Assembly: GCF_004353525.1 (NCBI RefSeq)
Contig: NZ_CP085524.1
Span: 3,183,001-3,247,000 of the forward strand
Direction of reading: 5' to 3'
Source: Zhaonella formicivorans
GTDB taxonomy: Bacteria > Bacillota > DUOV01 > Zhaonellaceae
Length of the DNA: 64,000 nt
The notes below the pieces were generated by a model. The model searched no databases, was not told the origin of the DNA, and worked only from the letters and a program-made list of their open reading frames with translations. Position 1 is the stretch's first letter. Every line of letters begins with the position of its first letter. Below, piece by piece: positions 14,210-31,715 of the stretch. Position numbers and translations under genes: made by a program.

Positions 14210-14651
14210 CCTTTTATCCTTGATCCTGCCCATTTCGAACAACTTTTTACAGACAAAATAGAGAGGAATTTGAAAAAGAATATGGAAATCAGTACTGATT
14301 AACTGAAAAACTTTATTTCCTCCCATAAAATCCCATGCTTATTTTAAGCGGGTTGGAGGGGAGGAAACGGAAAGGTTTTTTGAAATTAACAACTGGAGGC
14401 ATTTGGAAATGGCTTTCTTATAATTATTAATGTCTCCTATACTGAGCTTTGTTATTTTGAAAGCCTGGCCGAAAGTATTATTTGACAATTAGTCATCTGC
14501 TGCGCAACATGGTTTATACCTATTTTTTCACTCTTGATAAGGACAAAGAACGGCGGATTATTCGATGCGGCAGGCAGGACAAGCCTGGAATAATGGATTA
14601 AGTTGTATAAGTTTTTAAAATATGAAGTGGAATAAGAGAGGGGCTGAAAAA
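14210..14651. other. Intergenic region at the left edge of the defence island
   Basis: No gene is visible in these ~440 bases. A TTGACA at about 14481-14486 could be a -35 box, but no well-spaced -10 follows. The region marks the change from core genes to the accessory island; I see no tRNA gene or direct repeat that would define an integration site. Confidence 0.5.
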
Positions 14652-17600
14652 GTGAAAACCTTGTTTGAACTCTGTAGGCCGAGAGAGAGCGTCTTTGATG
14701 AAACGCAAAGGGATGATGTCTTAGATCTAACTGATTTAATTGAAAACCGCATCGATCCCCAGCGCTTTTTTGAGGAGAACTTCCTAACTCAAGGGATGAA
14801 AGTCTTATTGGAAACTGCTTTCAAGCGTTTCCACAGGCAGGGATCGACGGGCCTGATAAAACTGACCCAATCCATGGGCGGCGGTAAAACCCACAACATG
14901 ATTGCCCTAGGACTTTTGGCCAAGCATCCCGAGTTAAGGCAGAAAGTAATGGGGGATAGATTCAGAGACAGCCATCTGGGAAAAATCAAGGTTGTGGCCT
15001 TCACAGGCAGGGAAAGCGATGCACCATACGGCATCTGGGGAGCCATTGCCGAGCAGTTGGGTAAGAAAGAAGTCTTTAAGGATTATTATACCCCTCTGCA
15101 GGCGCCTGGGCAGACAGCCTGGATTAACCTTTTAAAGGGAGAGCCGCTCCTTATTTTGCTGGACGAGTTGCCTCCTTACCTGGAAAACGCTAAAGCGAAA
15201 ATGATCGGCGATTCGAATTTGGCCACAGTGACAACTACAGCCTTGGCCAATCTGTTCAATGCTTTGGGCAAAGAGGAGCTTTCCAACGTTTGCCTTGTTA
15301 TTTCCGACTTAAAAGCCACATATGAGAGCGGAAGCGAGTTATTGCAGTCATCTTTTAAGGAACTGGAAAACGAGGTCAACCGTTCTGCTTTAAACATTGA
15401 GCCAGTAAGCAGCACATCAGATGAAATCTATCACATCTTAAGGAGAAGGCTTTTTAAGGAGCTGCCTGGGGAAAGTGAAATAAATGAAATTGCTAACGCC
15501 TACAAACAAGCCGTCCTGGAAGCGAAACAAATGGGGTATACCAATCTATCCCCAGAACAGGTTTTTGTGGGGATTAAAGATTCTTACCCATTCCACCCTT
15601 CCATCAGGGACTTGTACGCCCGCTTTAAAGAAAATCCAGGCTTCCAGCAGACTAGAGGCCTCATCCGCCTCATGAGGATTATCATTTCCCAGTTATACAG
15701 AGGAGACAAGCCAAAGGCCCAGGAGAAGTATCTGGTTAATGTCTATGTTTTTGACCTCAACGATCCAGAAATGCTTACAGCCGTGACCCAGATTAAACCT
15801 TCCCTTGCTAACGCCATTGCCCATGATATTGCCTCCAATGGTAAAGCTGTCGCCGAAATTGTTGATGCTACAATGAACGAAACCTGCATGCAGGATTTAG
15901 CTAAGTTGGTTTTGGTTGCATCCCTTGCCGACATTCCAAATGCTCTTCTGGGGCTTTCCTTGCAGGAAACAATAGGGTATTTGTGCGAGCCAGGGAAGGA
16001 CATTACGCGGGTCAAAAGGGCCCTGGATGAATTTGTCATGCGGGCATGGTATCTCTTTACTGACAGGGACGGCAGGATCTTTTTCAAAAACACCAAAAAC
16101 CTCATTGCCGAATTAAACTCGCTGGTGGATTCTTACGATAACGAAAGCGCCAAAAAAGAATTAAGGGCTTTTCTGGAGGAAAAATTTAAACCGACCGTAG
16201 GGGATTGTTATCAAAAGGTGCAGGTCTTCCCAGCCGTGGATGAAATCAGCCTTTCCGAAGATAAGGTACTCCTTGTGCTTTTCGAACCCTATACGGGAGG
16301 CTCGGGCCTACATCCAGACTTACAGAAATTCTACGAAAACGAACGCTATAAAAACAGGGTGATGTTTTTATCAGGCACAAGAAGCACCATGGATAAACTC
16401 TATCACGCTGCCAAGGAGCACAGGGCGATCAACCAGATTATTGCCAGGATGGAAGAAGAAAAAGTGCCCGAGAACAATCCCCAGTACCAGAAGGCTCTGG
16501 AAAAACGGGACAGGATCAAGCTGGAGCTTTTGCAGGCAGCCAGGGAAACCTTTGTGCAGCTCTACTACCCTGCCAAAACTGGGCTGTTAAAGGCTGACTT
16601 CTTTATGGAATTTACAGGCAATGATTATAACGGGGAAAAACAAATCAGGGATGTCCTTTTGCAGAGGCAGAAATTTACCGTTGATGTGACGGACGATAAC
16701 TTCAGAAAAAAATGCGAAGACCGTTTATTTACCCAGAAGGAAATGCGCTGGAGCGATATTAAAGATCGGGCGGCCACCAACCCTGCCTGGCAGTGGCACC
16801 TACCGCGGGCTCTTGATGATTTAAAAGACGACATGCTGAAAAAAGGTATCTGGCGGGAGCACGGCGGCTATATTGAAAAACCACCGTTCCCGAAAGAAAA
16901 AACAAAGGTTTTGATTCAGGAACTTCGCAGGGATGACTCAACGGGAGAGGTGACCCTGAAACTTATCCCCCAGTATGGGGACAAGGTTTACTACGAAGTC
17001 GGGGCGCCTGCCACGACGGCTTCCAACCTGGTGGAGAATTTAAACGAATTTAGGACACGAGAACTTAAACTGTCGTTTTTGTGCGTAGACAGCACAGGAG
17101 GACATGAAACTGGTGACCCCGTGGAGTGGCAGAATAAAATCACCCTCAAATACAGGGTTTTTGACAGAGGTGATGATAAGGTCGTGGAACTTCTGTCAGC
17201 GCCCGCCACCACAATCAAATATACCACGGACGGCTCAAATCCCAAAGAATACGGCGGTATTTGCGACGGTGAGATTATCGTTCCCAAAGACTCTGCCTTT
17301 GTTTTGGCAGTAGCGGAAGCCCAGGGCATTTATTCGGAAACCATCCAAATAAAGATAGATAGGACAAAAGGAACTAGCATTACCATTTATAAAGATAAGC
17401 CTCTTAAACTGTATAAAAGGTGCAAAACCAGCGATACGGCGGAAACCTACCACGAGCTCGGCCTCTTAAAGAAACATGGCGCAGAACTCTCCGATGTGAT
17501 TGTAACCTTGTACAGGGTTGATGATGGCGGCGGTGAAAAAGGCTGGATTGAGCTGACCATTGATTCTTCCCTGAAAGTGGAGATAGAGCGTTTGGAAAAC

Positions 17601-17762
17601 AGCATTGATGCCGTAAGAAATAATTTCATAGCTGATGGTAAAGTGAACATCAGCCTGGAATACGGCACGGCACGGTTTGCCACGGGGCAGAACTTTATGG
17701 ACTGGGTGGCCACGAAGAAAAAATCATTGCAAGATTTTAAGGAACAGGAGATTGTACAATAA
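14652..17762 (+). CDS. DUF499 domain ATPase (anti-phage-associated)
   Basis: The product is ~1037 residues from GTG 14652, chosen because GAGAGGGG lies 8 nt upstream and the sequence then begins VKTLFELCRPRESVF, the usual DUF499 opening. An ATG 30 nt upstream has no ribosome binding site. Walker A is SMGGGKT (residues ~74-81) and Walker B LLILLDE (~166-172). Long helical regions follow, and a C-terminal section of beta-rich repeats includes TIKYTTDGSNP, a chitobiase-type C-terminal-like sequence. DUF499 proteins are large P-loop ATPases found next to DUF1156 methylases and helicases in defence islands. Its stop codon abuts the next start. It probably powers or gates the methylase-helicase complex; that role is inferred. 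Confidence 0.87.
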   Translation: MKTLFELCRPRESVFDETQRDDVLDLTDLIENRIDPQRFFEENFLTQGMKVLLETAFKRFHRQGSTGLIKLTQSMGGGKTHNMIALGLLAKHPELRQKVMGDRFRDSHLGKIKVVAFTGRESDAPYGIWGAIAEQLGKKEVFKDYYTPLQAPGQTAWINLLKGEPLLILLDELPPYLENAKAKMIGDSNLATVTTTALANLFNALGKEELSNVCLVISDLKATYESGSELLQSSFKELENEVNRSALNIEPVSSTSDEIYHILRRRLFKELPGESEINEIANAYKQAVLEAKQMGYTNLSPEQVFVGIKDSYPFHPSIRDLYARFKENPGFQQTRGLIRLMRIIISQLYRGDKPKAQEKYLVNVYVFDLNDPEMLTAVTQIKPSLANAIAHDIASNGKAVAEIVDATMNETCMQDLAKLVLVASLADIPNALLGLSLQETIGYLCEPGKDITRVKRALDEFVMRAWYLFTDRDGRIFFKNTKNLIAELNSLVDSYDNESAKKELRAFLEEKFKPTVGDCYQKVQVFPAVDEISLSEDKVLLVLFEPYTGGSGLHPDLQKFYENERYKNRVMFLSGTRSTMDKLYHAAKEHRAINQIIARMEEEKVPENNPQYQKALEKRDRIKLELLQAARETFVQLYYPAKTGLLKADFFMEFTGNDYNGEKQIRDVLLQRQKFTVDVTDDNFRKKCEDRLFTQKEMRWSDIKDRAATNPAWQWHLPRALDDLKDDMLKKGIWREHGGYIEKPPFPKEKTKVLIQELRRDDSTGEVTLKLIPQYGDKVYYEVGAPATTASNLVENLNEFRTRELKLSFLCVDSTGGHETGDPVEWQNKITLKYRVFDRGDDKVVELLSAPATTIKYTTDGSNPKEYGGICDGEIIVPKDSAFVLAVAEAQGIYSETIQIKIDRTKGTSITIYKDKPLKLYKRCKTSDTAETYHELGLLKKHGAELSDVIVTLYRVDDGGGEKGWIELTIDSSLKVEIERLENSIDAVRNNFIADGKVNISLEYGTARFATGQNFMDWVATKKKSLQDFKEQEIVQ

Positions 17763-18332
17763 ATGGCGGAAAGAAGAAGGACAATCGGTTTTGGTTTTGA
17801 TCCTTTTGAGTCGCAGCACCATTTTTTAGTGGTTATTCCCCGCAGTAATGACGGGAAGGTGATTATCTACGAACGCTTCAAGTGGCAGGAGGACGCAGAG
17901 GTCCATACTATTGATTATACCATTGACAGGCCGAAAGTGGAGCTGGGCAAATACAAATGGAAGCTCATCGAAGATGCCCTGAAGGACGAATTCAACAGCA
18001 GGCTGAAAAAGGAAAAGCTGCCCGTTGGCAAATGGCATATCGGGCAGGTACCTGTCCAGCGTCTTTTTGGCAAGGAAATGGTGCTTTTGGCCTGGGCCAT
18101 TGAGGACTGCGACCCGTCGGTCATCCCGACGGCGATAAAAAACTGGCTGGGTTTAAGCCCCGAGGAGCGCTGGTGGCTTTTTACCATGACCAATGCCGCC
18201 TCGGGTGGGCTGAATGACAAACGTGGCTGGCGCAAGGCGGTAAGATATGCCCTTACCGAAAACCCCGTGGAAGAGTCCAATCGGCAGATGGAGCTTTTCG
18301 ACCTGCTGATCGGCAGGAAAATAGATGACTAA
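17763..18332 (+). CDS. DUF3780 domain protein (anti-phage-associated)
   Basis: The product is 189 residues with no catalytic motif that I can name. The sequence is rich in aromatic and charged residues (IGFGFDPFESQHHFLVVIPR near the start; LSPEERWWLFTMTNAASGG near residue 140). DUF3780 proteins are encoded between DUF499 and DUF1156 genes in several defence islands, matching this position. The ATG directly follows the TAA of the DUF499 gene, with AGGAG 12 nt upstream, and the 3' end overlaps the methylase start, so the three genes are co-translated. A structural or adaptor role is likely but unproven. Confidence 0.85.
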   Translation: MAERRRTIGFGFDPFESQHHFLVVIPRSNDGKVIIYERFKWQEDAEVHTIDYTIDRPKVELGKYKWKLIEDALKDEFNSRLKKEKLPVGKWHIGQVPVQRLFGKEMVLLAWAIEDCDPSVIPTAIKNWLGLSPEERWWLFTMTNAASGGLNDKRGWRKAVRYALTENPVEESNRQMELFDLLIGRKIDD

Positions 18333-21267
18333 AAGAGGCGGTGTGAGGATGGCTTATTCTGAGCAATCATTTATAGAGGTGCAATTCCCAGTATCAAAGG
18401 TATCCAAGGAAAGCTATAAGGAAAGAAAGGCAAATTTAGGACAGACCTTGACGGGACTTGGCAAATGGTGGGGCAGAAAGCCCCTCATCCTTATTAGGGC
18501 AGCTTTGCTGGGGTTGTTAATGCCTGCCAACGATAACCCCAAAAAGGATCGGGAGATATTTTTAAAAATCCTGACCATGGACGAAGCAGGACTGTGGCTG
18601 AGGAAAAATAAATCCATCCCAATGCAAGAGATCTATGACAACCTCACCCCAGGGGAGAGAAAAAGGTACTTTAAAGAAGAAAGTAATGGTAAGATATCTT
18701 ACCGCAAAGATATAACCAGGGAAGAAAAGGAAAACCTGCAGCGGCTGGTCTTCAACAGGCTGTCTTATGACCAGAAATTAACTTACTGTGTAAGGCCTGA
18801 AGAAGTGGACAACCTCCCCGAAACAGAATGGAAAAAGATCAACGAATATCTTGGCACAAACGCCTCAACCCTTCAGGAACTAGTGCAGGAACTTGGCAGG
18901 AGAAGGTTCGGCAAAATCCCTGTGGTGGGTGACTGCTTCTGTGGCGGGGGGAGCGTCCCCTTTGAAGCGGCAAGGATGGGCTGTGATGTTTATGCCTCTG
19001 ATTTAAACCCCATCGCCATGCTTTTGACCTGGGCAGCTCTTAATATCAACGGTAGTTCCGAGGAGGAGATCACAAGCTTGCGGGCATTTCAGGAGAAGAT
19101 CTTTGAACTGGCCGACAAGCAAATTACCGCGTGGGGGATCGAGCACAATGAAGAGGGACACAGGGCAAACTCATATCTTTACTGCAATGAAACGGTCTGC
19201 CCCGAATGCGGCTGGCGAGTGCCTTTAGCTCCTTCTTGGGTGATTGGCAAGGGGACAAATACGGTAGCTATTTTAAAAGAAAACGCAGATAAAAAAGGGT
19301 TTGATATTGAAATAAAATCCGATGCCACCAAGGCGGAAATGGGGCAGGCGGAGAAGATGGCGACCATCCAAGACAGCAGTCTTTACTGCCCCCACTGTAA
19401 AAATACCACCCCTATAACTGCTATCCGCAGGGACAGAAAGCACGATGATAGAACGGTGGAATACGGCCTGCGCCGCTGGGAAGCCCATGAATTTATCCCC
19501 CGCCCCGACGATGTCTTTCAGGAGCGGCTCTACTGTATCAGGTATAAAAGGGAGTATGTGGATGAAAAGGGAAACGTAAAGACCGAAAGATATTACACCG
19601 CACCCACCGATGGGGCTCTGGAAAGAGAAAAAAAGGTGGTGCGGCTCCTTGAGGAAAGGTTTGCGGAGTGGCAGGAGAAGGGGTATATTCCAAACAGCAG
19701 GATTGAAGAAGGGGACGAAACCTCGAGGCTAATGAGGGAAAGAGGCTGGACTTACTGGCACCAGCTGTTCAATCCCAGGCAGCTCTTGGTGCACGGGCTG
19801 CTGATGGAACTGATTGATCAGTATGCGAAGACGAAGAAGGAGAAGGTTGTGGGGCTGCTGGGGGTGAATAAGTGCTGTGACTGGAATTCAAAATTAGGAG
19901 TATGGCATTCAGGAGCAGGAGTAGAGAATTCACAAAATACATTTCTCAATCAGGCTTTAAATACTCTTTTCAATTATGGGACCCGTGGGTTAACAAATTT
20001 AAAAAATAGTTGGTTATTTTCTATGAACAACTTTACCATTAGATATAATATCAATGTTTTAACAACATCTGACGCTCGTCAAATTAAAAATATAGCAGAG
20101 ATCTGGCTTACCGACCCCCCTTATGCTGATGCAATAAACTACCATGAACTATCAGAATTCTTCCTCGCCTGGGACAAAAAGATGCTCCTCGATATCTTCC
20201 CCGAGTGGTATGCCGACAGCAAAAGGGCTCTGGCGGTAAAGGGGACGGGCGAGAGTTTTAACCAGAGCATGGTGGAGATCTATCGGAATCTGGCGGAACA
20301 AATGCCCAAGGACGGTATGCAGATTGTCATGTTTACCCACCAGAATGTAGGCGTGTGGGCAGACTTGACCCTGATTCTCTGGGCAGCAGGATTAAGGGTT
20401 ACGGCAGCCTGGAATATTGCCACGGAAACCGATGCCAGCGGCCTTAAGCAGGGCAACTATGTTAAAGGCACTGTGCTCCTTGTGCTGCGCAAGCAGACTT
20501 CCGAAGAAACAGCCTATCTCGACGAGCTCTATCCCGAGATCGAGCTGGAAATAAAAAGACAGATTGACAGCATGCGGGAGCTGGATGATAAGGAAGATCC
20601 CAATTTCAGCGATACGGATTACCTGCTGGCGGCCTATGCGGCTTCCCTGAAGGTACTGACTTCATATAGGCAGATTGAAGACATTGATGTCAACTACGAG
20701 CTTTCCAAGACCAGAGTTTCTGGAGATGAATCCCCTGTAGAGAAAATCATCAACGAGGCGGTAAAAATAGCTTACGACTATCTGACGCCCAGCGGCTTTG
20801 ATTCATATCTCTGGAAAATGCTGACGTCCGAAGAAAGGTTCTACATCAAAGGGCTTGACCTGGAAAAAGACGGCATCTACCAAATCGGGGCTTATCAGGA
20901 ATTAGCCAGGGGGTTTGGGGTAAGAGAATACAAAGACCTCCTTGCTTCCATCCGTGCCAATCAGGCGAGGCTTAAGACTGCCATGGAATTCGGCATGCGC
21001 GGCTTGGGCGGTGCCGACAGCTTCAGCAAATCCCTGCTCCGCAATGTGCTGGCGGCTCTACATCAGGCGATCAAAGCCGAAGACACCATACAGGGCAGAA
21101 ATTGGCTGAAAAACGAACTGCCCAACTACTGGAGCCAGCGAAACACAATCGTAGAGATCCTTGAATTTATATCCGCTTTCGAAAATATAGAAAATATGCC
21201 CCACTGGAAGGAAGAGGCAAGGTATGCCAGGCTCCTGGCCGAACTTGTAAAGAATGATAGTGTATAA
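18325..21267 (+). CDS. DUF1156 DNA methylase (anti-phage-associated)
   Basis: The product is 980 residues from ATG 18325, overlapping DUF3780 by 8 nt. GTG 18343 and ATG 18349 are alternative starts, the last with AGAGG about 10 nt upstream. The N-terminal DUF1156 block (FPVSKVSKESYKERKA, GKWWGRKPL) is followed by SAM-binding motif I at ~202-210 (GDCFCGGGS). Two CxxC zinc pairs come next (CPECGW, CPHCKN), and the catalytic motif IV is DPPY at 597-600. A DPPY motif fits an amino-methyltransferase making N6-methyladenine or N4-methylcytosine. Bases ~19890-20108, just before DPPY, are far more AT rich than the rest, suggesting a recombined segment. It probably marks self DNA for the accompanying helicase and ATPase. 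Confidence 0.88.
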   Translation: MTKRGGVRMAYSEQSFIEVQFPVSKVSKESYKERKANLGQTLTGLGKWWGRKPLILIRAALLGLLMPANDNPKKDREIFLKILTMDEAGLWLRKNKSIPMQEIYDNLTPGERKRYFKEESNGKISYRKDITREEKENLQRLVFNRLSYDQKLTYCVRPEEVDNLPETEWKKINEYLGTNASTLQELVQELGRRRFGKIPVVGDCFCGGGSVPFEAARMGCDVYASDLNPIAMLLTWAALNINGSSEEEITSLRAFQEKIFELADKQITAWGIEHNEEGHRANSYLYCNETVCPECGWRVPLAPSWVIGKGTNTVAILKENADKKGFDIEIKSDATKAEMGQAEKMATIQDSSLYCPHCKNTTPITAIRRDRKHDDRTVEYGLRRWEAHEFIPRPDDVFQERLYCIRYKREYVDEKGNVKTERYYTAPTDGALEREKKVVRLLEERFAEWQEKGYIPNSRIEEGDETSRLMRERGWTYWHQLFNPRQLLVHGLLMELIDQYAKTKKEKVVGLLGVNKCCDWNSKLGVWHSGAGVENSQNTFLNQALNTLFNYGTRGLTNLKNSWLFSMNNFTIRYNINVLTTSDARQIKNIAEIWLTDPPYADAINYHELSEFFLAWDKKMLLDIFPEWYADSKRALAVKGTGESFNQSMVEIYRNLAEQMPKDGMQIVMFTHQNVGVWADLTLILWAAGLRVTAAWNIATETDASGLKQGNYVKGTVLLVLRKQTSEETAYLDELYPEIELEIKRQIDSMRELDDKEDPNFSDTDYLLAAYAASLKVLTSYRQIEDIDVNYELSKTRVSGDESPVEKIINEAVKIAYDYLTPSGFDSYLWKMLTSEERFYIKGLDLEKDGIYQIGAYQELARGFGVREYKDLLASIRANQARLKTAMEFGMRGLGGADSFSKSLLRNVLAALHQAIKAEDTIQGRNWLKNELPNYWSQRNTIVEILEFISAFENIENMPHWKEEARYARLLAELVKNDSV

Positions 21268-21281
21268 GCAGGTGAAGGGGA

Positions 21282-23993
21282 ATGATTTATCGGTATTCTT
21301 CCAGACGAAAAAAGTTGGATGAAGCATTCTTAAATGAAAAGTTAAAAGGAGCGCTGAGCTACGACAGGATTGCGGGTTATTTCAGTTCTTCCATCTTGGA
21401 GATAGCGGGTGAAGCCCTTGAAGAAATCAAGGGATGTGTCAGGGTTGTCTGCAACGCAGAAATGCAAAAGGAAGATGCTGTTACGGCCAGCGCTGCGGTC
21501 AATGCCATGCGGCGGGAGTGGTGCAGCAAAAAGCCCGAGGAAATATACAGCAGTGCCCCTAGAAGATTGAAAAAGCTTTATGACCTGATTAATAGCGGAA
21601 AACTCCAGATCAAAGTGGTTCCCAACGATGTCTTCGGCCTTATCCACGGAAAGGCAGGAGTCATTACCCTAAAAGATGGGAGAAAAACATCTTTTATCGG
21701 CAGCGTAAACGAAACTTATACAGGCTGGAAGTTAAATTACGAAATCCTCTGGGAAGACGATTCCGAGGAGGGGGTAAAATGGGTCCAGGAGGAATTCGAT
21801 TATTTCTGGAACAGCCCCTATGCTGTCCCACTGGCGGACTTTATCGTTGAAGATATCAAAAGGATCTCTGAACGGAAGGTCATCTATTCAGTAGATGAGT
21901 GGAAGGCAGACCCAGAGCCTGCTTCTGCTGTTGTTGAGGCTCCCGTCTACCGTCAGGAGTTGGGACTGTGGGAACACCAAAAATATTTCGTAAATCTGGC
22001 CTTTAACGACCACAAAAAGTACGGGGCAAGGTATGTGCTGGCTGATATGGTCGGGCTGGGCAAGACGGTCCAGCTTGCCTTATCGGCCCAGCTCATGGCC
22101 TTTTACGGTGACAAACCCATCCTGGCTATCGTCCCCAAGACCCTTTTATGGCAGTGGCAGGATGAGGTTAACACTCTCTTGGATATGCCCTCGGCAGTCT
22201 GGGACGGCAGGGAATGGGTGGACGAAAACGGCGTCAAGTACCCTGCCAGCGACGACGGAGCTATCAAAAGGTGCCCCAGGCGGGTGGGCATTATTTCCCA
22301 GGGGTTGATCACTGCCAATTCGGAACAGATACAGCACCTTTTGAATATGGAATACGAATGCGTCATCGTCGATGAAGCCCACAGGGCAAGAAGAAAGAAT
22401 TTAGGCCCTGGCAAAGAGGATGAAAAACCAAACCCCAATAATTTGCTGAAATTCCTCCTTGAAATCTCCAAACGCACCAAAAGCATGTTGTTGGCTACTG
22501 CTACCCCTGTGCAGCTGTATCCCATTGAAGCCTGGGATCTTTTAAACGTCCTGGCCCAGGGCAGCGACAGTGTGCTGGGCAGTCCGTTCAGTATGTGGAG
22601 AAGATATCCTGTCAGAGCCATTAACCTGATCATGGGCAAAGAAAGCCTCGACCGCTTTGATAAGGAAAACTGGGAATGGATCAGGAATCCTTTCCCGCCT
22701 GCTGCCGAGGGTGAGATGACCTTTGGACGCATCAGGCGGCAGCTCGGCATGGCTGATGATGAATTTGTCATCAAGCCCGAAGCGAGAGAACAGTTAAGCC
22801 GACCTGACCAAAGAAGGATCGGGAGAATAATTGATGATAATTTTATTACGGAACATAACCCTTTTATCAGACATATAGTGCGCAGGACACGGGATTTCCT
22901 GGAAAACACCATCAATCCCGAAACAGGCGAGCCGTATCTGAAAAAAGTCGAGGTAGAATTGCTGGGGGAGAGCGATGAGGAAGCCATTGTCTTGCCGCCG
23001 TATTTGAAAGAAGCCTACGGGTATGCGGAAGAATTTTGCGAACTCTTGCAGAAGAGGGTAAAGGGCGGCGGATTTTTAAAGACTTTGCTCTTAAAAAGGG
23101 TCGGCAGCACCATCGTTGCAGGCAAAAACACTGCAGAAAAAATGCTTGCTAACTGGGGCCAGGTTATTGATGAGGAAGACTATGAAGAAGAGGATATTGC
23201 AGAAGAAAAGGCCCTGCAGAGCGAAATCAAAAACATAACGGATGAAGAAAGAACCTGCCTGGTGAAATTTATTGAAACCCTTAATGCCAATAAGGAAAAA
23301 GACCCAAAATACAAGCTGCTGCTCAAACTTCTGCTCGAAGATAATTGGATCGGACGGGGCTGCATTATCTTTTCACAATATTATGATTCTGCCTACTGGG
23401 TGGCCGAGAATTTATCCAACGACCTGCCTAATGAAAAAATCGGTATTTATGCAGGCGGAGATAAATCAGGAATATTTATCGGCGACATTTATGAAAAACG
23501 GAGCAAGGAAGAAATCAAGCAGATGGTAAGAAGGCGGGAACTGCGGGTTTTGGTAGGTACAGACGCTGCCAGCGAAGGGTTAAATCTACAGACTTTGGGT
23601 TCACTGATAAACCTTGACCTGCCCTGGAACCCTACACGGCTAGAACAGAGAAAAGGCAGGATTCAGCGTATCGGGCAGGTTTATGACAAAGTTTTTATTT
23701 ACAACATGAGGTATAAAGGGTCGGTGGAGGACAGGGTGCATTCTCTCCTTTCCGAGCGGTTTGCCAATATCTACGGCATGTTCGGGCAGATTCCTGACGT
23801 TTTAGAAGATGTCTGGATTAATGTTGCACTAAATGATATTGAGGAAGCAAAGCGAAGGATTGATGTCATTCCCAAACAGCACCCTTTTGAATTAAGATAC
23901 CATGTTCATGTGGGCAAAGTTGACTGGGAAAGCTGTGCTAAGGTGCTGGACGGCAGGGAAAAGCGGAAGCATCTGATGGCAGGGTGGAAATAA
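21282..23993 (+). CDS. PLD-like nuclease domain plus SNF2/DEAH helicase (anti-phage-associated)
   Basis: The product is 903 residues. Residues ~1-190 resemble a phospholipase-D-like nuclease domain: a single HGK motif, then a GSVNETYTGWKLNYE block. A superfamily 2 SNF2-type helicase follows, with motif I DMVGLGKT (~252-259), motif II VDEAH (DEAH box), motif III LLATATPVQ, motif IV IIFSQYYDS, motif V VGTDAASEGLNLQ and motif VI LEQRKGRIQRIGQ. All helicase motifs appear intact. It starts 14 nt after the methylase stop with AGGTGA ahead of the ATG. In this gene set the helicase is the likely DNA-translocating effector; the PLD domain may cut DNA, although only one HxK is visible. Confidence 0.88.
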   Translation: MIYRYSSRRKKLDEAFLNEKLKGALSYDRIAGYFSSSILEIAGEALEEIKGCVRVVCNAEMQKEDAVTASAAVNAMRREWCSKKPEEIYSSAPRRLKKLYDLINSGKLQIKVVPNDVFGLIHGKAGVITLKDGRKTSFIGSVNETYTGWKLNYEILWEDDSEEGVKWVQEEFDYFWNSPYAVPLADFIVEDIKRISERKVIYSVDEWKADPEPASAVVEAPVYRQELGLWEHQKYFVNLAFNDHKKYGARYVLADMVGLGKTVQLALSAQLMAFYGDKPILAIVPKTLLWQWQDEVNTLLDMPSAVWDGREWVDENGVKYPASDDGAIKRCPRRVGIISQGLITANSEQIQHLLNMEYECVIVDEAHRARRKNLGPGKEDEKPNPNNLLKFLLEISKRTKSMLLATATPVQLYPIEAWDLLNVLAQGSDSVLGSPFSMWRRYPVRAINLIMGKESLDRFDKENWEWIRNPFPPAAEGEMTFGRIRRQLGMADDEFVIKPEAREQLSRPDQRRIGRIIDDNFITEHNPFIRHIVRRTRDFLENTINPETGEPYLKKVEVELLGESDEEAIVLPPYLKEAYGYAEEFCELLQKRVKGGGFLKTLLLKRVGSTIVAGKNTAEKMLANWGQVIDEEDYEEEDIAEEKALQSEIKNITDEERTCLVKFIETLNANKEKDPKYKLLLKLLLEDNWIGRGCIIFSQYYDSAYWVAENLSNDLPNEKIGIYAGGDKSGIFIGDIYEKRSKEEIKQMVRRRELRVLVGTDAASEGLNLQTLGSLINLDLPWNPTRLEQRKGRIQRIGQVYDKVFIYNMRYKGSVEDRVHSLLSERFANIYGMFGQIPDVLEDVWINVALNDIEEAKRRIDVIPKQHPFELRYHVHVGKVDWESCAKVLDGREKRKHLMAGWK

Positions 23994-24025: not shown

Positions 24026-24958
24026 ATGTTTAAAATCCATTTTTTAAATGTAGGTCACGGCGATTGTGCTTTAATACAATTTCCTGAAAGGACGATACTA
24101 GTAGATATAAATAATGGACAAGCATTGGACGAAGAAACTAAACAGGAGCTTATGGAACAATATGGTATTAGCAAATATGAACTTTTATTTAAATCTTTTA
24201 GTCAAGTGCTTTTCGAAAAAGGATATAATATTCCGCTATGTAATCCTATTGAATATCTGAAAAATCAGGGCATTAATTCAATTTTTCGATTTGTGCTGAC
24301 TCATCCTCATATGGATCACATGTCTGGTTTGTATGATCTTGTTAAAAAGGGACAGATTTCAATAACAAATTTTTGGCACAGTGGCGTTGATGTAGAAAAA
24401 CCAGATTTTGAAGAAACAGAATATAAAGAAGAAGACTGGGATACTTACATTGAATTAAAAAACTCAAGTAATAATCCAAAAAATATTGTTAATAATGCTG
24501 GTGACACTGGTCAATATTGGACAGATGATGGAATAGAGTTACTTTGTCCCACTCCAGATTTAAAAAAATTAGCTAAGGAGAAAAATAATTGGAATCTGTT
24601 AAGTTATGTCCTATTGATAACACATAAAGGCTATAAATTTATTTTAGCGGGCGATGCAGAAAAAGAATGCTGGGATTATATTGTTGAGAATTATTCTGAT
24701 AAAATATCTAATATTAACATATTAAAGGCCGCACACCATGGTAGGGAATCTGGTTTTCATGAAGATGCTGTGAAGTTAATTAACCCTGAATACACAATTG
24801 TTTCTGTAGGGAAAAAGCCCGATACAGATGCTCATAACAAATATAAAAAGTACACAAGAAAGAAAGTTCTATCCACGAGGTATAGGGGAAATATTGTAGT
24901 AAGCGTTGATGATAATGGAAATGGCAGTATTGATTGGCAGTATCATAAGGACGATTGA
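24026..24958 (+). CDS. MBL-fold hydrolase (ComEC/Rec2-like metallo-beta-lactamase domain), AT-rich accessory gene
   Basis: The product is 310 residues and is a single metallo-beta-lactamase fold. The N-terminal strand VGHGDCALIQFP is typical of ComEC-type hydrolase domains. The metal motif HxHxDH appears as THPHMDHMSG. Later ligands are AGDAEKECW and AAHHGRESGFH. It has no signal peptide or membrane helix, so it is a cytoplasmic stand-alone enzyme, unlike ComEC. Base composition drops to about 25 percent GC (counted over 24421-24480), much lower than the helicase gene 32 nt upstream, so it was acquired separately. Its neighbour at 24970 shares that composition and follows after 11 nt, so the two form a unit. 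Confidence 0.85.
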   Translation: MFKIHFLNVGHGDCALIQFPERTILVDINNGQALDEETKQELMEQYGISKYELLFKSFSQVLFEKGYNIPLCNPIEYLKNQGINSIFRFVLTHPHMDHMSGLYDLVKKGQISITNFWHSGVDVEKPDFEETEYKEEDWDTYIELKNSSNNPKNIVNNAGDTGQYWTDDGIELLCPTPDLKKLAKEKNNWNLLSYVLLITHKGYKFILAGDAEKECWDYIVENYSDKISNINILKAAHHGRESGFHEDAVKLINPEYTIVSVGKKPDTDAHNKYKKYTRKKVLSTRYRGNIVVSVDDNGNGSIDWQYHKDD

Positions 24959-24969
24959 AGGTGATAAAT

Positions 24970-25695
24970 ATGAGTGGGAAAATACCTTTGAGAATAGAAC
25001 AAGCATTAGATTTAGTGTTGGCTTTACCCGCCCATAGGTCAGGCAATCAAAACCACGCCAAGTTTGGGCACATGTTGATTGAAGAATATTTTATAAAATT
25101 GAGAAGTGATTATAAAGAAGATGAAAATGCATATATTTATTTAACTCATCTTTTCACAGCAGTCGCTTCTGCTGTTAGGGCTTTTTCTGTTCAACGGGAC
25201 ATCTTTCAGACAAAATGGAATACGTTATGTGCGGTTAAAAATAGCATTATAAATAGAGCTAATAAAATGGAGAAGTACTCCCCTTTTAATGGAGTGAACG
25301 GTAAATTAATATCCCTTTTTATCTCGTTAAGTTCCAGTGGTATAATAACAAAGCCAAGAATTAATAATGTTCAAGATATACTTATTTTCGTTTATTTAGT
25401 TCCGATATTTTTTGTTATAGCTATGTTTATTTTTGATTTTGTTTTAGATTTATATCGGGATAAACTAATAAGAAAAGCTGAAAAAACCCTAAACCAAAAT
25501 GTGGTAGAAATATGGCAAGAAGAAAATCATGCTCAATATAAATTAATATTGAAGAATTTTTTGTTAATTGCAATTGAAATACATAAAAGACATTATCCTA
25601 ATGAAGAAATTTTTGAGGAAGATATTGATAAATTAAGCAAAGAAGAATTAGAACAATATTTAGATAAAATAATTGAAAAACATCTCGCTTTTTAG
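24970..25695 (+). CDS. Unknown membrane protein paired with the MBL-fold hydrolase
   Basis: I do not recognise this family. From ATG 24970 (GAAGGTGAT 7-9 nt upstream; a TTG at 24955 is a weaker alternative) it is 241 residues. The first ~125 residues are soluble and helical. Then come a weakly hydrophobic segment (LISLFISLSSSGII) and a strong membrane helix (ILIFVYLVPIFFVIAMFIF, near residue 150). An ~85-residue C-terminal cytoplasmic tail is rich in Glu/Lys with EEDIDKLSKEELEQYLDKI. A soluble sensor plus membrane helix beside a nuclease- or hydrolase-like partner is a layout seen in abortive-infection modules. That role is inference only. It is strongly AT rich. Confidence 0.6.
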   Translation: MSGKIPLRIEQALDLVLALPAHRSGNQNHAKFGHMLIEEYFIKLRSDYKEDENAYIYLTHLFTAVASAVRAFSVQRDIFQTKWNTLCAVKNSIINRANKMEKYSPFNGVNGKLISLFISLSSSGIITKPRINNVQDILIFVYLVPIFFVIAMFIFDFVLDLYRDKLIRKAEKTLNQNVVEIWQEENHAQYKLILKNFLLIAIEIHKRHYPNEEIFEEDIDKLSKEELEQYLDKIIEKHLAF

Positions 25696-26049: not shown

Positions 26050-26556
<507 letters not shown>

Positions 26557-26588
26557 GCAATGATAAACTTAGTGTAGGGGGAATTTTT

Positions 26589-26864
26589 ATGACCAGGAAA
26601 AAATACAGCGATGAATTTAAACAACAAATAGTCAAAGAAGCAATTGAGACGGGCAATATGTCCTTAGTAGCCCGGCAGCATGAAATTGCTAAATCAATGG
26701 TTGCCAAATGGGTAAAACAATATAAAAACCCTCCTGTGCAAAAAAATAATAAGGGGAAAACTGTTAATAATAGTTACTATAACGAACTTGAAACCGAGAA
26801 CGATAAACTTAAAAAGCTCCTCTACCTTAGAAATGGCGAAAAAGTCTTGAAAATTACGGTTTAG
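26589..26864 (+). pseudogene. IS3-family OrfA-like transposase fragment (OrfB missing)
   Basis: The frame is 91 residues and begins MTRKKYSDEFKQQIVKEAIETGN, the HTH of IS3-type OrfA. It continues through VARQHEIAKSMVAKWVKQYK to an ELETENDKLKKLL leucine-zipper start, then loses similarity. No OrfB with the DDE core follows; instead a 115-nt hairpin begins 9 nt after the stop. It is a remnant that cannot transpose by itself. Confidence 0.8.
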
Positions 26865-26872
26865 AATTATTC

Positions 26873-26987
26873 GTTTAACCTGTAAGAATAAAGTCTTATG
26901 GTTTAAGAAAGGGTCAAGGTCGCAACGCGGCGAAGCGAAACCTTGACGCGCTTCTTAAACCATAAGGAAATAGTCAACAGGTTAAAC
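26873..26987. repeat. 115-nt nearly symmetrical hairpin element
   Basis: Three nested helices are readable: 26873-26883 with 26977-26987 (11 bp), 26895-26909 with 26952-26966 (15 bp), and 26913-26920 with 26940-26947 (8 bp). They close on a GC-rich loop. It lies between the IS3 remnant and the HEPN/MNT module. No ORF is supported in it. Confidence 0.7.
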
Positions 26988-27189
26988 AAAGATGCAATCG
27001 TGTGAAATCATGAGAAATTAAGAAACTTTGTCCAAAATTCGGGGGTCAATCCGAATGTGCTTGGGTGGTAACAATCAAAGTACCACATTAAATTAATGTT
27101 CTACGAAGATATTGCAAAGGGCTGAAATATTAGGTGTTGTTGATGCTATAATAAAAATTAGAAAAAACAAAGAAGCATAGGGTGATAAT

Positions 27190-27498
27190 ATGTGTCCTTA
27201 TGATAATGAGATTGAAAAAATAAAGAATCAGATTATAAATAAATACACTCCAAAGGATATTATCCTTTTTGGCTCATGTGCGAAGGGCTTGGTTAAGCGT
27301 GGCAGCGACATAGATATTTGCGTAATCCTTGAGACACAAAATAAAAGGCAAACATTAAGAGAGATGCTTGTTGATATAGAATATGATGTGGATTTGGACA
27401 TAGTCATATATACACCATCAGAGTGGTCGAGATATAAAGATGACAAGGCAAGCTTTGCAAACATCATTAAAAGAACAGGGGTGAGTTTGATTGGTTGA
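27190..27498 (+). CDS. MNT-type nucleotidyltransferase antitoxin (MntA-like)
   Basis: The product is 102 residues. It carries the minimal nucleotidyltransferase motif GSCAKG followed by GSDIDICV, and a third acidic strand (DVDLDIVIY). This is the MNT partner of HEPN/MNT toxin-antitoxin pairs, in which MntA is known to modify the HEPN toxin (oligoAMPylation in the studied case). The 3' end overlaps the HEPN start by 8 nt. A TATAAT box lies at 27147-27152, about 40 nt upstream. Confidence 0.88.
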   Translation: MCPYDNEIEKIKNQIINKYTPKDIILFGSCAKGLVKRGSDIDICVILETQNKRQTLREMLVDIEYDVDLDIVIYTPSEWSRYKDDKASFANIIKRTGVSLIG

Positions 27499-27841
27499 TT
27501 CGATAAAGCATAAAGAATGGTTTGAGATGGCAAAAAAGGATATGAGAAGTGCTGAAATTTTACATGAGCATGATGCCGATAATGGGATAGTATGTTTTCA
27601 TTGCCAACAAGCTATAGAGAAATATCTAAAAGGCTTTCTTATAAATGCTACAGGAGAACTGCAAGAAGGGCATAATTTGGTTAAGCTCTGTAAGAAGGCT
27701 ATGTCTTATGATAAGGCTTTGGGTGAATTCATAAAGGATATGGCTTTTGTAAACACATATTATATTGAGACCAGATACCCTGCAGAGGATCCTCTTTTGG
27801 TAAGCAAAGAAGATGCAGAAGAATGTATTAAAATAGCGTAA
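27491..27841 (+). CDS. HEPN domain toxin partner, C-terminus cut by the IS66 terminal repeat
   Basis: The product is 116 residues from TTG 27491, overlapping MntA by 8 nt, with AGGGGTGAG ahead. HEPN family marks are HKEWFEMAKKDMRSAEILHEH at the start, CFHCQQAIEKYLKGFL in the middle and YYIETRYPAE near the end. The final codon and TAA stop (GCGTAA) coincide with the first bases of the IS66 left end (GTAAGCG, from 27838). The native last helix has therefore probably been replaced by an IS-supplied stop. The core residues remain, so activity is uncertain. Confidence 0.82.
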   Translation: MVDSIKHKEWFEMAKKDMRSAEILHEHDADNGIVCFHCQQAIEKYLKGFLINATGELQEGHNLVKLCKKAMSYDKALGEFIKDMAFVNTYYIETRYPAEDPLLVSKEDAEECIKIA

Positions 27842-27925
27842 GCGTCAAATAGCCCCCACCTAGCCCACCATCCTTCTTTATGAGATACTCTTAGCAAAAT
27901 AGAGTCGATAAAGGAGGATTTTTTC

Positions 27926-28228
27926 ATGACTAAAGAAGAACTACGAGACTTTTGGGCAGCCAGGGTAAAGGAATTTAAAGAGAGCGGCCAGAGTGCACCT
28001 GCATGGTGTGTGGCCAACAACGTAAAGCTCCATCAATTAAGGTACTGGCTTAGAAAAGAGAAACAGACATCCACTGTGACTACATTATCTTGGCTGCCAC
28101 TCAATCTTAGCGACACATGCCTTCAAACTTCTTTGTTGGTAAGGGTAGGCCAGGTCGCAGTAGAAGTCAAGTCAGGGTTTGATCCAAAATTATTAGCAGA
28201 CGTGGTGAAAGTGCTGAGTGCACAATGA
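27926..28228 (+). CDS. IS66 accessory protein TnpA
   Basis: The product is 100 residues. It opens with ELRDFWAARVKEFKESGQS and has the W-C-x-x-N HTH pattern AWCVANNVKLHQLRYWL, characteristic of the IS66 first gene. GGAGG precedes the ATG. It overlaps tnpB by 4 nt (ATGA). The protein is thought to bind IS ends or regulate transposition. Confidence 0.9.
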   Translation: MTKEELRDFWAARVKEFKESGQSAPAWCVANNVKLHQLRYWLRKEKQTSTVTTLSWLPLNLSDTCLQTSLLVRVGQVAVEVKSGFDPKLLADVVKVLSAQ

Positions 28229-28584
28229 TAGGTGAATCAAACTTGGAACGGGTTTACCTGGCCTGCGGAAGCACGGACCTTCGTAAGTCCATTGATGGCT
28301 TAGCAGTTTTGGTCAAAGAAGGATTTGAACTAGATCCTTTTTCTCCCGCCCTTTTTGTATTCTGTAACCGGAAACGTGATAAACTTAAAATCCTCCAGTG
28401 GGAGCATAATGGTTTTTGGCTTCATTACCGGCGGCTGGAGAAAGGAAAATTCCAGTGGCCGGAGAAAAACAGTACAGCCACTGTCACAACGATTACTCGC
28501 CGGGAGTTACGCTGGTTACTAGACGGCCTACCCCTTCAGCAACGTCAGGCTCACCCTAAGGTTACTGCACGGACAGTGCTGTAA
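28225..28584 (+). CDS. IS66 accessory protein TnpB (IS66 Orf2)
   Basis: The product is 119 residues. The family signature is complete: VYLACGSTDLRKSIDGLAVLV, PFSPALFVFCNRKRDKLKIL and GFWLHYRRLEKGKFQWP. It is translationally coupled to tnpA by an ATGA overlap. Its role in IS66 transposition is essential but biochemically poorly defined. Confidence 0.93.
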   Translation: MIGESNLERVYLACGSTDLRKSIDGLAVLVKEGFELDPFSPALFVFCNRKRDKLKILQWEHNGFWLHYRRLEKGKFQWPEKNSTATVTTITRRELRWLLDGLPLQQRQAHPKVTARTVL

Positions 28585-28651
28585 CCTTTTTATTTGGCTT
28601 TAAGTCTCGATTTTAAAGGTTTTTAAAGGGCCTATGTCGAATTAAAACTTT

Positions 28652-29626
28652 ATGAATAATACCGCCAAAACCATCGAAGAACTTCAAAATAGATGCGCTT
28701 TACTGGAGCAGCAAAACGCAGAACTTACCGCCAAGCTAAACTGGTTTATGGAACAGTTCCACCTAAGCCAACATCGACAATTTGGCACTTCCAGCGAGAA
28801 GACTAACCCAGATCAACTGCAGCTTTTTAACGAGGCGGAAGCGGAGGCTCAACCATCCTCAAAAGAACCCACAATTGAGGAAATTACCTATCGTCGTCGC
28901 AAGAAACAAGGGCACCGTGAGGCGCAGTTGGAAAACCTGCCGGTAGAGACCATCGAATACCGCCTGCCTCCCGAAGAACAGGTGTGTCCCTGTTGTGGCG
29001 GAGCGTTACATGAAATGAGTACAGAGGTAAGGCAGGAGCTTAAGATCATCCCTGCCCAGGCTTATGTAGTCAAACATGTGCGTTACGTTTACGCTTGCCG
29101 GCACTGTGACCGGGAGAATATTCAAACGCCCATCGTAACCGCACCCATGCCTGCACCTGTGTTGCCGGGAAGTTTAGTTTCCCCCTCAGCCATGGCTTAC
29201 ATCATGACACAAAAATATGTGGAAGGCCTGCCGCTTTATCGTCAGGAGCAGCAGTTGTCCCGTCTGGGTATAGAACTGTCCAGGCAAACTTTGGCCAACT
29301 GGATGGTCCAGGGTGCAGAACGATGGCTATATCCCCTATACGAGAGGATGCACCAGCATCTGCTAAAACGAGATATCTTGCATTCTGACGAAACTACCTT
29401 GCAAGTGTTGCGTGAACCAGGCCGCCCGGCAGAAAGCACGTCTTACCTATGGCTCTACCGTACCGGACGGGAAGGCCCGGCAATAGTCCTCTATGATTAC
29501 CAGACGACCCGGGCGAGCAAGCATCCCTGCCGGTTTTTATCAGGTTTTAAGGGATATTTGCACGTCGACGGTTATGCAGGCTATAACGGGCTGCCGGATA
29601 TCACTTTAGTTGGATGTTGGGCCCAT
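28652..29626 (+). pseudogene. IS66 transposase TnpC, N-terminal 325 codons (split by RIT insertion)
   Basis: The reading contains the leader coiled coil ([20 protein letters not shown]), a zinc-binding CPCCGG...CRHC motif, and the first two catalytic acidic residues (HSDETTLQV and [11 protein letters not shown]). It breaks after GCWAH at 29626. The raw frame continues for 34 unrelated codons into the inserted element and stops near 29728. The missing C-terminal part resumes in the same codon phase at 36620. Precise removal of the insert would rebuild a TnpC of ~518 residues. Confidence 0.9.
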
Positions 29627-29719
29627 TATCCCAGATGTATGATTATCCGAGAAAGTATGCTTAAAGCTGAAGAGATAGGTAAAGCTTTAAAACCTTCTCA
29701 GATAATCATAATGAAACAA

Positions 29720-30745
29720 TCATCGTAGAAAATCAGGCAACTCATTGTCACGGACAGTGTTATGATCTGCGTTAGCCGGTATTGAGAACCACCGCTCATT
29801 CCACTCCTTCAGATGCTTATCCACAGTATTCTGAGATATCTCAGCATAAATCTGAGTCGACTGTAATGACGAGTGCCCCAGAAAATTCTTAATCACAGCA
29901 AGCGGGACACCTGCTTCTAACATATGGCTTGCTGTCGAGTGCCTCATTGAATGGGGCGTATAACTGTTATCAATAAATAAGCCGGGATTCTTCTGCTTTG
30001 CTATCCAGACATATTTTTTGAAAATTTCTTCGATGCAGGATACGGTCATCTTTTCGTGTGTCTGGCTGGAGAATATATGCCTTTCCGGAAGCGATGCTAT
30101 CTTCCTATGATCAATGTAGCCCTTCAAAAGAGACACGCATGCATAAGAAATCCCAATTCTTCTCTTTTTATGTCCCTTTCCAGTGATGTTAAGAGAAGCG
30201 CCTTTTTCTGAGAATTGAATGTCCTTCACAGTAAGGTCACATATTTCCTGAGCCCTTGCGCCACTAGCATACATGAGACTCAGAAGTACTTTATCCCTAA
30301 GACCGATCTCATAGTGATCGTCCGGAAGCCTCAGCAGGATTGTGACCTCTTCTCTTGTGAAGATCGCCCGATTCTTATGTGTGGCCTTCTTCATCGGAAT
30401 CTTTGTGACACTGCTTCTGAATGTCGACGCAGCTGCGAAATCCCTGTTTTGTGCATAAGAGGAGAATGACGCGAGTGCTGACAGGCGCTGGTTCTTGGTG
30501 GTTGCACTACATCCTCGGGACTTTTCAAGCCACAACAAGAAGTCGATCATTGTCTGGTAATCGAGAGTCTCAAAAGATATCTGGTCAGCTGAGATACCTT
30601 TCTCCTGATACATATATTTCAGAAGCAGTCTGAAAGCTGCTTTGTACGATTTTATCGTATTCGGGCTGGCACCTACAGCACCCGGAAGGTATTCTGTTAA
30701 AAAACTGTTCAGCAGTTTAAGAAATGAGGAGGCTTTATGTTTCAT
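29720..30745 (-). CDS. RIT tyrosine recombinase, third gene
   Basis: The product is 341 residues from ATG 30745 (GGAGGTGGCGT ahead), overlapping the previous gene by 11 nt. An N-terminal SAM-like core-binding domain has the [14 protein letters not shown] pattern. The catalytic domain contains the conserved Arg in [23 protein letters not shown] (HxxR) and the nucleophile Tyr in [16 protein letters not shown]. All key residues are present, so it should be active. In RIT elements all three recombinases are thought to be needed together. Confidence 0.9.
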
Positions 30746-31715
30746 ACGCCACCTCCGGAAATACATCTGCTGAATAATCAGAGAACAGCTCCATTGCCTC
30801 GGGGAACAGTTCACTGCTGAACTTCATGTATTTTTCGGTTTCCTGCAGGCTGTCATGCCCGAGATATATGGAGAGATAAGGTACTGAATCATCAATCCTT
30901 CTCCCGGCTTTTTCTGCAGCGATAAAGGACTTGAAGACGAAAGCATGACGCATGCAATGCAGGCAGGGACCGCGTTCATGCTTTTTCCGTCCAGGAAAAG
31001 ATATCTCCGCAAGACGGAGTATCTTCTCAAACCAGTGCTGGGCATCCCTCGGCGTCATTGACTCATCTTTTCCATAAACGGGAAACAGCCAGGCATCTGG
31101 AACCCCAACGATGCCCATTGCCAGACAGTAACGTTCCAGAATCTCAGTCAACAAAGGATTCATCGGCACCAGACGCTGCTTGTTACCTTTTGTATGCCTC
31201 ATAATCAAGAACCCACCAATCAGGTCGACATCCCTCATCTTTAAGGCAAGCGTCTCTCCTATCCGGAGCCCGCAGCCATACATGAGCCTGATGACCATGG
31301 GAAACTCGAACTGAATCAGCGGATTCTTCTTTGTGTTTGAGGCATCAAGATTGTCTGCCTGTTGATATATCCGTTCCAGTTCCTCATCCGAGAAGATATG
31401 TGGGACATAATCATCAGCGACCTTGGGTATCGGAGGAATGTAAGCGGTAATCCCGATACTGTTAAGGTACTTAAGAAAAATACGTATGACTATAACCTTA
31501 TTTGCTATGGAACTGCTTTTTCCGTTCAGGGTATGAATCCAGTTATTAATCAAGGCTTCTGATACGGACTTTTCATTTGTATATCTAGCTGCAAACGCAT
31601 CAAAATCTGCAAGATAATGACAGTCATGGGCATATGCGCTCTTACTGAGTGATACCTGTCGCAAGGACAAGAAATCTTCAAGTTCTTTCCGGAAGGGGCT
31701 ATTGAATGTTGTCAT
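30735..31715 (-). CDS. RIT tyrosine recombinase, second gene
   Basis: The product is 326 residues from ATG 31715, in an ATGA overlap with the first gene, behind GGGAGG. Catalytic features are GCGLRIGETLALK (Arg I), CLHCMRHAFVF (His-x-x-Arg) and LGHDSLQETEKYMKF (Tyr nucleophile). A CxHCMRH variant and a longer loop before it distinguish it from the other two. The residues needed for strand transfer look intact. Confidence 0.9.
   Translation of the reverse strand: MTTFNSPFRKELEDFLSLRQVSLSKSAYAHDCHYLADFDAFAARYTNEKSVSEALINNWIHTLNGKSSSIANKVIVIRIFLKYLNSIGITAYIPPIPKVADDYVPHIFSDEELERIYQQADNLDASNTKKNPLIQFEFPMVIRLMYGCGLRIGETLALKMRDVDLIGGFLIMRHTKGNKQRLVPMNPLLTEILERYCLAMGIVGVPDAWLFPVYGKDESMTPRDAQHWFEKILRLAEISFPGRKKHERGPCLHCMRHAFVFKSFIAAEKAGRRIDDSVPYLSIYLGHDSLQETEKYMKFSSELFPEAMELFSDYSADVFPEVAYET

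Follow-up and report, generated by a model that had tools for sequence, protein, structure and literature searches.

A ComEC-like MBL hydrolase and a membrane protein of a rare family as a candidate two-gene defence module in Zhaonella formicivorans

Two adjacent genes of Zhaonella formicivorans, encoding a stand-alone MBL-fold hydrolase and a membrane protein, are tentatively interpreted here as a self-contained anti-phage (or anti-plasmid) module, acquired horizontally, that would combine a DNase with a second effector at the membrane. Among the explanations weighed below this is the one we prefer, at somewhat less than even confidence. The genes were found in a window of 64,000 nucleotides (contig NZ_CP085524.1, positions 3,183,001 to 3,247,000 of the forward strand), to which all coordinates of the following genes and features refer:

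14622..23993, + strand: Type-2 BR operon (DUF499-centred, BREX-related), 5' of the pair and judged to be outside it
24026..24958, + strand: MBL-fold hydrolase gene (310 aa), stand-alone, resembling the ComEC nuclease domain
24970..25695, + strand: membrane-protein gene (241 aa) of a family without a name; no family match, two homologues

Locus layout and composition

Both ORFs are intact, on the + strand and spaced by 11 nt, as the first-pass annotation had described for a stand-alone ComEC-like MBL followed by a membrane protein, and a match to TIGR00361 (E 1e-12) bears out the ComEC-like part of that description. Shine-Dalgarno-like sequences precede both starts (GGGGG ahead of 24026 for the MBL gene, AAGGTG ahead of 24970 for the membrane-protein gene). 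The earlier estimate of about 25-30 percent GC for the two genes was slightly low, with 32.3% for the MBL gene (GC3 24%) and 29.2% for the membrane-protein gene (GC3 23%), while the contrast drawn with the helicase gene just 5' of the pair (GC 47.5%, GC3 55%) held; the four genes 5' of the pair have a GC content of 47-52% and a GC3 of 54-64%. The pair had also been described as free of mobile genes of its own, and none was found within it; transposase fragments begin approximately 350 nt downstream. Long direct repeats marking integration were sought around the pair and none was found.

The region behind the pair (26050-29728) contains transposase remnants, namely an IS30-like N-terminal fragment, an orphan IS3-type orfA and an IS66-type gene set. 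A HEPN-MNT toxin-antitoxin pair (27190-27841; NTP_transf_2, E 4e-14; HEPN, E 2e-27) is located about 1.5 kb past the MBL-membrane pair, and three consecutive overlapping tyrosine-recombinase genes on the - strand (29720-32944) have the layout of a recombinase-in-trio element.

The MBL protein

In addition to TIGR00361, the MBL protein matched PF00753 (E 2e-6) and PDC-M48B (E 3e-26), and a profile search against the PDB returned the ComEC nuclease domain (E 4e-25). The same domain (9ic4) ranked first when the structure model of the protein (pLDDT 79) was compared using Foldseek, with an E value of 1.4e-15 and a TM-score of 0.69. The metal site and two insertions relative to the ComEC nuclease domain were located as follows:

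24122..24241, + strand: insertion 1, residues 33-72 (approximate boundaries)
24302..24319, + strand: HPHMDH metal motif, codons 93-98 (H93, H95, D97, H98)
24464..24529, + strand: insertion 2, residues 147-168 (approximate boundaries)
24653..24655, + strand: codon of the metal ligand D210
24734..24739, + strand: HHG motif, codons H237-H238

Residues H93, D97, H98, D210, H237 and H238 are invariant across 12 MBL relatives. The Mn-dependent DNase activity of Moorella ComEC requires the corresponding metal ligands, with the exception of D600 (PMC12455585); all ligands essential for the ComEC DNase are present in the window MBL (H93, D97, H98, D210, H237), and its H95 occupies the tolerated position D600. 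The protein, which consists of the 310-aa MBL only and ends in YHKDD, was found to lack a signal peptide, an OB fold and a competence domain. Insertion 1 comprises extra helices (model confidence 64-78), and insertion 2 was modelled with low confidence (pLDDT 51-56, <50 at 159-165). Judged by its sequence, the protein is related to the ComEC nuclease domain, stands alone and has all of the metal site, and we infer that it would act as a metal-dependent, regulated DNase. The earlier idea of a nuclease or nucleotide hydrolase with a membrane effector fits this predicted ComEC-like active site.

The membrane protein and its homologues

The membrane protein matched no family in Pfam, NCBIfam, PADLOC or PHROGs and is thus new to the four family libraries searched; as no known housekeeping family was found among them either, the first-pass reading of the pair stands on this point. 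The strong membrane helix already recognized in that annotation was recovered at residues 137-155. It is probably not a single helix: a weaker hydrophobic segment precedes it (residues ~111-126), and because both homologues also carry two such segments, a two-helix hairpin is the more probable arrangement. The features of this gene are:

25033..25068, + strand: HRSxNxxHxKFG motif, codons 22-33, invariant in all three known members
25174..25200, + strand: VRxFSxxRD motif, codons 69-77, conserved in the three members
25300..25434, + strand: predicted membrane hairpin, segments 111-126 and 137-155

The first motif extends to LALPxHRSxNxxHxKFG, which is common to all three family members, as is VRxFSxxRD. 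A structure model built on two sequences (pLDDT 74) is all-helical, with the hydrophobic hairpin between two long helices, and gave no significant fold match in the PDB or BFVD. We disregarded as evidence the weak likenesses to alpha-pore-forming toxins (XaxAB, AhlB, MakA; E 0.2 to 0.9, TM-score ~0.2 to 0.34), because long helices match one another by chance. No match to a SLATT model was obtained at E up to 1, and none to a protease family. The N-domain is conserved, helical and probably cytosolic, and its invariant His/Arg/Asn/Lys pattern suggests a putative binding site, whose ligand may be the MBL or nucleotides released by the MBL.

No more than three family members are known; the two besides the window protein share 27-28% identity with it. 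The first homologue, on the Abditibacteriota plasmid pIAD-21 (28% identity over 212 aa, E 7e-17, plasmid search), is encoded by the third gene of an operon, after a 6A-MBL enzyme (NF058524, 385 bits) and an E2-E1-JAB protein (NF058523, 570 bits; Prok-E2_A, ThiF, Prok-JAB). The second, in Longilinea arvoryzae (Chloroflexota; 27% identity, E 5e-19), follows a 469-aa MBL gene with a 4-nt overlap. The C-terminal segment of this MBL has a sub-threshold match (E 6e-5, 23.5 bits vs a cut-off of 26.7; L018:5232-6638) to AGS_C (PF18134), the C-terminal sensor domain of CD-NTases (PMC7288161). The pairing therefore recurs, as the first-pass reading would have it, with the same membrane family in an operon with an MBL in both lineages. 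One membrane family hence links a stand-alone ComEC-like MBL, an MBL with an AGS_C-like tail and an MBL with a ubiquitin-like conjugation protein, which suggests that the MBL and the membrane protein form the core and that E2-E1-JAB is an optional regulator.

The family is rare and patchy. A profile search of 398 genomes of the home phylum found it in 1 of 266 genera, a spurious match in genome G385 being rejected as it covers the hydrophobic stretch only. No member was found beyond Longilinea in 350 genomes of Chloroflexota, in a further sample of 219 genomes or in the phage search, and the plasmid searches returned the Abditibacteriota member only. Peptide- and DNA-pattern scans of genome and viral contigs gave one true match (Longilinea) and ten chance matches.

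Membrane partners of related MBL genes

Relatives of the window MBL adjoin other small membrane proteins in genomes G234, G188, G059 and G275, in Runella and in Staphylococcus nepalensis. The G234 MBL, 47% identical to the window MBL, shares one base with a Csx27-like four-helix gene, behind a cytosine methyltransferase. The partners in G188 and S. nepalensis belong to a second four-helix family and are mutually homologous (E 3e-23), the G059 partner is a third kind of membrane protein and is encoded upstream of the MBL, and the Runella MBL has membrane genes on both sides. Overall, a membrane gene was found on the same strand within 60 nt for 4 of 9 MBL relatives compared to 10 of 134 soluble genes of the home genome (binomial P ~0.003, limited by the small and non-independent sample of nine relatives and by a base rate from one genome, taken from 20 stretches of 20 kb). 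Allowing gaps of up to ~230 nt, 6 of the 9 have a membrane neighbour; the other three (Haloarchaea, Hymenobacter and Methylobacterium) have no adjacent membrane gene.

The membrane protein encoded at the end of a Deinococcus 6A-MBL operon is homologous to the partner of the G275 MBL (E 6e-9). Together with the pIAD-21 operon this indicates that two or more membrane families are found in loci that have an E2-E1-JAB protein as well as in loci that lack one. The third gene of a Deinococcus 6A-MBL operon was also considered as a homologue of the window membrane protein and rejected, the two not being homologous. From the homologous loci and the unrelated membrane neighbours of related MBLs, as far as comparison of sequences and gene order can tell, the pairing is recurrent, its membrane partners are exchangeable and the conjugation protein is optional.

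Two plasmid loci showed further peculiarities. On the S. nepalensis plasmid (L006:5094-7209), the related MBL gene is broken near a recombinase gene, with codons 1-119 inverted and codons 137-299 in normal orientation, and the membrane partner is intact. The Runella plasmid pRUNSL03 (L004:3537-12795) carries three MBL units in a row, consisting of an MBL and a SEC-C protein, an MBL between two membrane proteins, and an MBL and a serine protease.

Proposed mechanism

In the module that we favour, the MBL would be a metal-dependent DNase and the hub of the system, held inactive until infection, perhaps by its two insertions. The membrane protein would be embedded in the inner membrane, its N-domain facing the cytosol. 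Coupled to the MBL either directly or through nucleotides that the MBL releases, it would serve as a second effector acting at the membrane, and an infected cell would thereby lose both its DNA and its membrane integrity. In the Abditibacteriota version, the added E2-E1-JAB protein presumably joins the MBL C-terminus to targets, a layer that is absent from the window pair.

The strongest competing explanation, which we consider rather unlikely, retains the defence module and makes the membrane protein only an anchor, gate or sensor that holds the MBL nuclease at the inner membrane to destroy incoming DNA, much as the ComEC nuclease domain is placed on its DNA channel. It is consistent with the window MBL being closest to that domain and with MBLs being the DNA-cutting effectors of characterised systems (PMC12799240), and the combination of a constant MBL with mutually unrelated membrane partners is what an effector with swappable sensors or anchors would produce. 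A mere anchor, however, would have no need of the invariant polar pattern (HRSxN..H.K and VR.FS..RD), and the Longilinea MBL itself seems to bear a sensor-type domain (the sub-threshold AGS_C match). Of these models for the membrane protein, we prefer, by judgement and not as a result, a second effector as the most likely, a plain anchor or gate being less so.

The upstream BR operon and further alternatives

The four upstream genes (14622-23993) encode a DUF499 ATPase, a DUF3780 protein, a DUF1156 methyltransferase and an HKD/PLD-SNF2 helicase, and with these components the operon corresponds to the definition of a Type-2 BR (BREX-related) system (PMC12839542). The helicase gene and the MBL gene are on the same strand with a gap of 32 nt and no + strand terminator-like site between them, so co-transcription of the BR operon and the pair is possible. 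Numerous auxiliary nuclease effectors are reported to adjoin BREX and BR loci (PMC12839542), and the pair could on these grounds be an auxiliary effector that is co-transcribed with the BR operon and triggered by it. We regard this as improbable. An MBL match was found within ~1.5 kb at none of 10 other Type-2 BR loci of the phylum (helicase genes above the NCBIfam cut-off, with up to 1.5 kb per side), and three plasmid-borne BR operons had no MBL, other genes such as one for a TIR protein following the helicase. These counts indicate that the pair is an addition to the BR system. The sharp difference in composition from the BR genes also argues against the auxiliary role, as do the Chloroflexota and Abditibacteriota loci, where the same membrane family and an MBL are encoded in a single operon with no BR gene close by. 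The pair looks like an independent module, not part of the BR system, and composition, BR loci and homologues together support the separately acquired two-gene module proposed in the first-pass annotation.

It is more improbable still that the genes form a toxin-antitoxin-like pair in which the MBL neutralises a membrane toxin or removes its ligand. The small size and adjacency of the two genes, the membrane nature of one product and the many mobile elements in this stretch would suit such a pair, but the membrane partner is freely exchanged, the MBL of the Abditibacteriota operon is a member of an annotated anti-phage family, with its own regulator, and we know of no MBL antitoxins. Chance neighbourhood or a housekeeping function in competence or the envelope is the least probable explanation of all: in the same phylum, some ComEC-like MBLs are indeed competence proteins or secreted enzymes, but the pairing recurs in three phyla, the membrane family is rare and patchy, and the window MBL lacks the accessory domains and signal peptide of such proteins.

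Comparison with known systems

The first-pass annotation knew no named system with this pair. That holds insofar as the pair scores as a member of none, but close named relatives exist in 6A-MBL and the PADLOC candidate PDC-M48, neither of which was mentioned by name in the literature searched. Operon type 6a (MBL and E2-E1-JAB) was described in 2006 by Iyer et al. (PMC1779556), and NCBIfam names an anti-phage 6A-MBL system (NF058523, NF058524). It shares the MBL core with the window pair, and the third gene of the Abditibacteriota 6A-MBL operon is the homologue of the window membrane protein. The window MBL, however, belongs to another subfamily, with 41.5 bits for NF058524 against a cut-off of 220 (385 for the Abditibacteriota MBL). 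No E2-E1-JAB gene was found in the window operon or, above cut-off, in the home genome, which gave only generic ThiF/MoeB-type matches, and none of the 6A type was found above cut-off in the Longilinea genome. The MBLs of five E2-E1-JAB (6A) loci (L002, L010, L011, L013, L014) have PRAG or RVG at the C-terminus, in some cases followed by a few more residues, whereas the window and Longilinea MBLs have no such C-terminal Gly tail. Ends of this type would be expected of a conjugation tail processed by JAB, as in CBASS CD-NTases. The typical 6A-MBL loci that we saw also differ in having no membrane gene.

PDC-M48 likewise pairs an MBL (B) with a small membrane protein (A). The window MBL scores best with PDC-M48B, at 90 bits (E 3e-26), compared to ~380-410 bits for true members (L045, L047), and the window membrane protein, which is of another family, did not match PDC-M48A at E up to 1.

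The MBL pro-nuclease and protease pairs of Hachiman, AVAST, Lamassu, DRT and canu (PMC12799240) resemble the window pair in their ComEC-like MBL with two insertions, in an MBL gene just upstream of its partner and in their mobility between defence loci, but their partner is a trypsin- or caspase-like protease, in contrast to a membrane protein that matched no protease family. The MBL effectors of Hachiman, AVAST and canu are DNases that resemble DNA-uptake nucleases and are gated by two insertions; in HamM-type nucleases, the insertions block the active site until the partner protease cuts them (PMC12799240). By analogy, the two insertions of the window MBL are a suggestive parallel to this gating. 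The ComEC/Rec2 nuclease domain (PDB 9ic4) shares the fold and metal ligands of the window MBL, which differs in standing alone, in lacking an OB fold or channel and in having the insertions.

Type II CBASS is comparable by analogy only: related MBL loci carry E2-E1-JAB, the Longilinea MBL has an AGS_C-like domain and the membrane partners vary, but no CD-NTase is present among the six genes (four BR genes and the pair). A bolder generalisation, which we hold to be distinctly unlikely, is that MBL-membrane pairs form a CBASS-like class in which an MBL phosphodiesterase or nuclease would replace the CD-NTase, with an AGS_C-type sensor, E2-E1-JAB and exchangeable membrane effectors plugging in; the HRSxN..HxKFG domain would then be a receptor for the nucleotide products of the MBL that opens the membrane hairpin. 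The window pair itself is built from the same kind of parts as 6A-MBL and PDC-M48 while scoring as a member of neither, and as a system of two genes it offers a direct test bed for the role of membrane partners in MBL-based defence.
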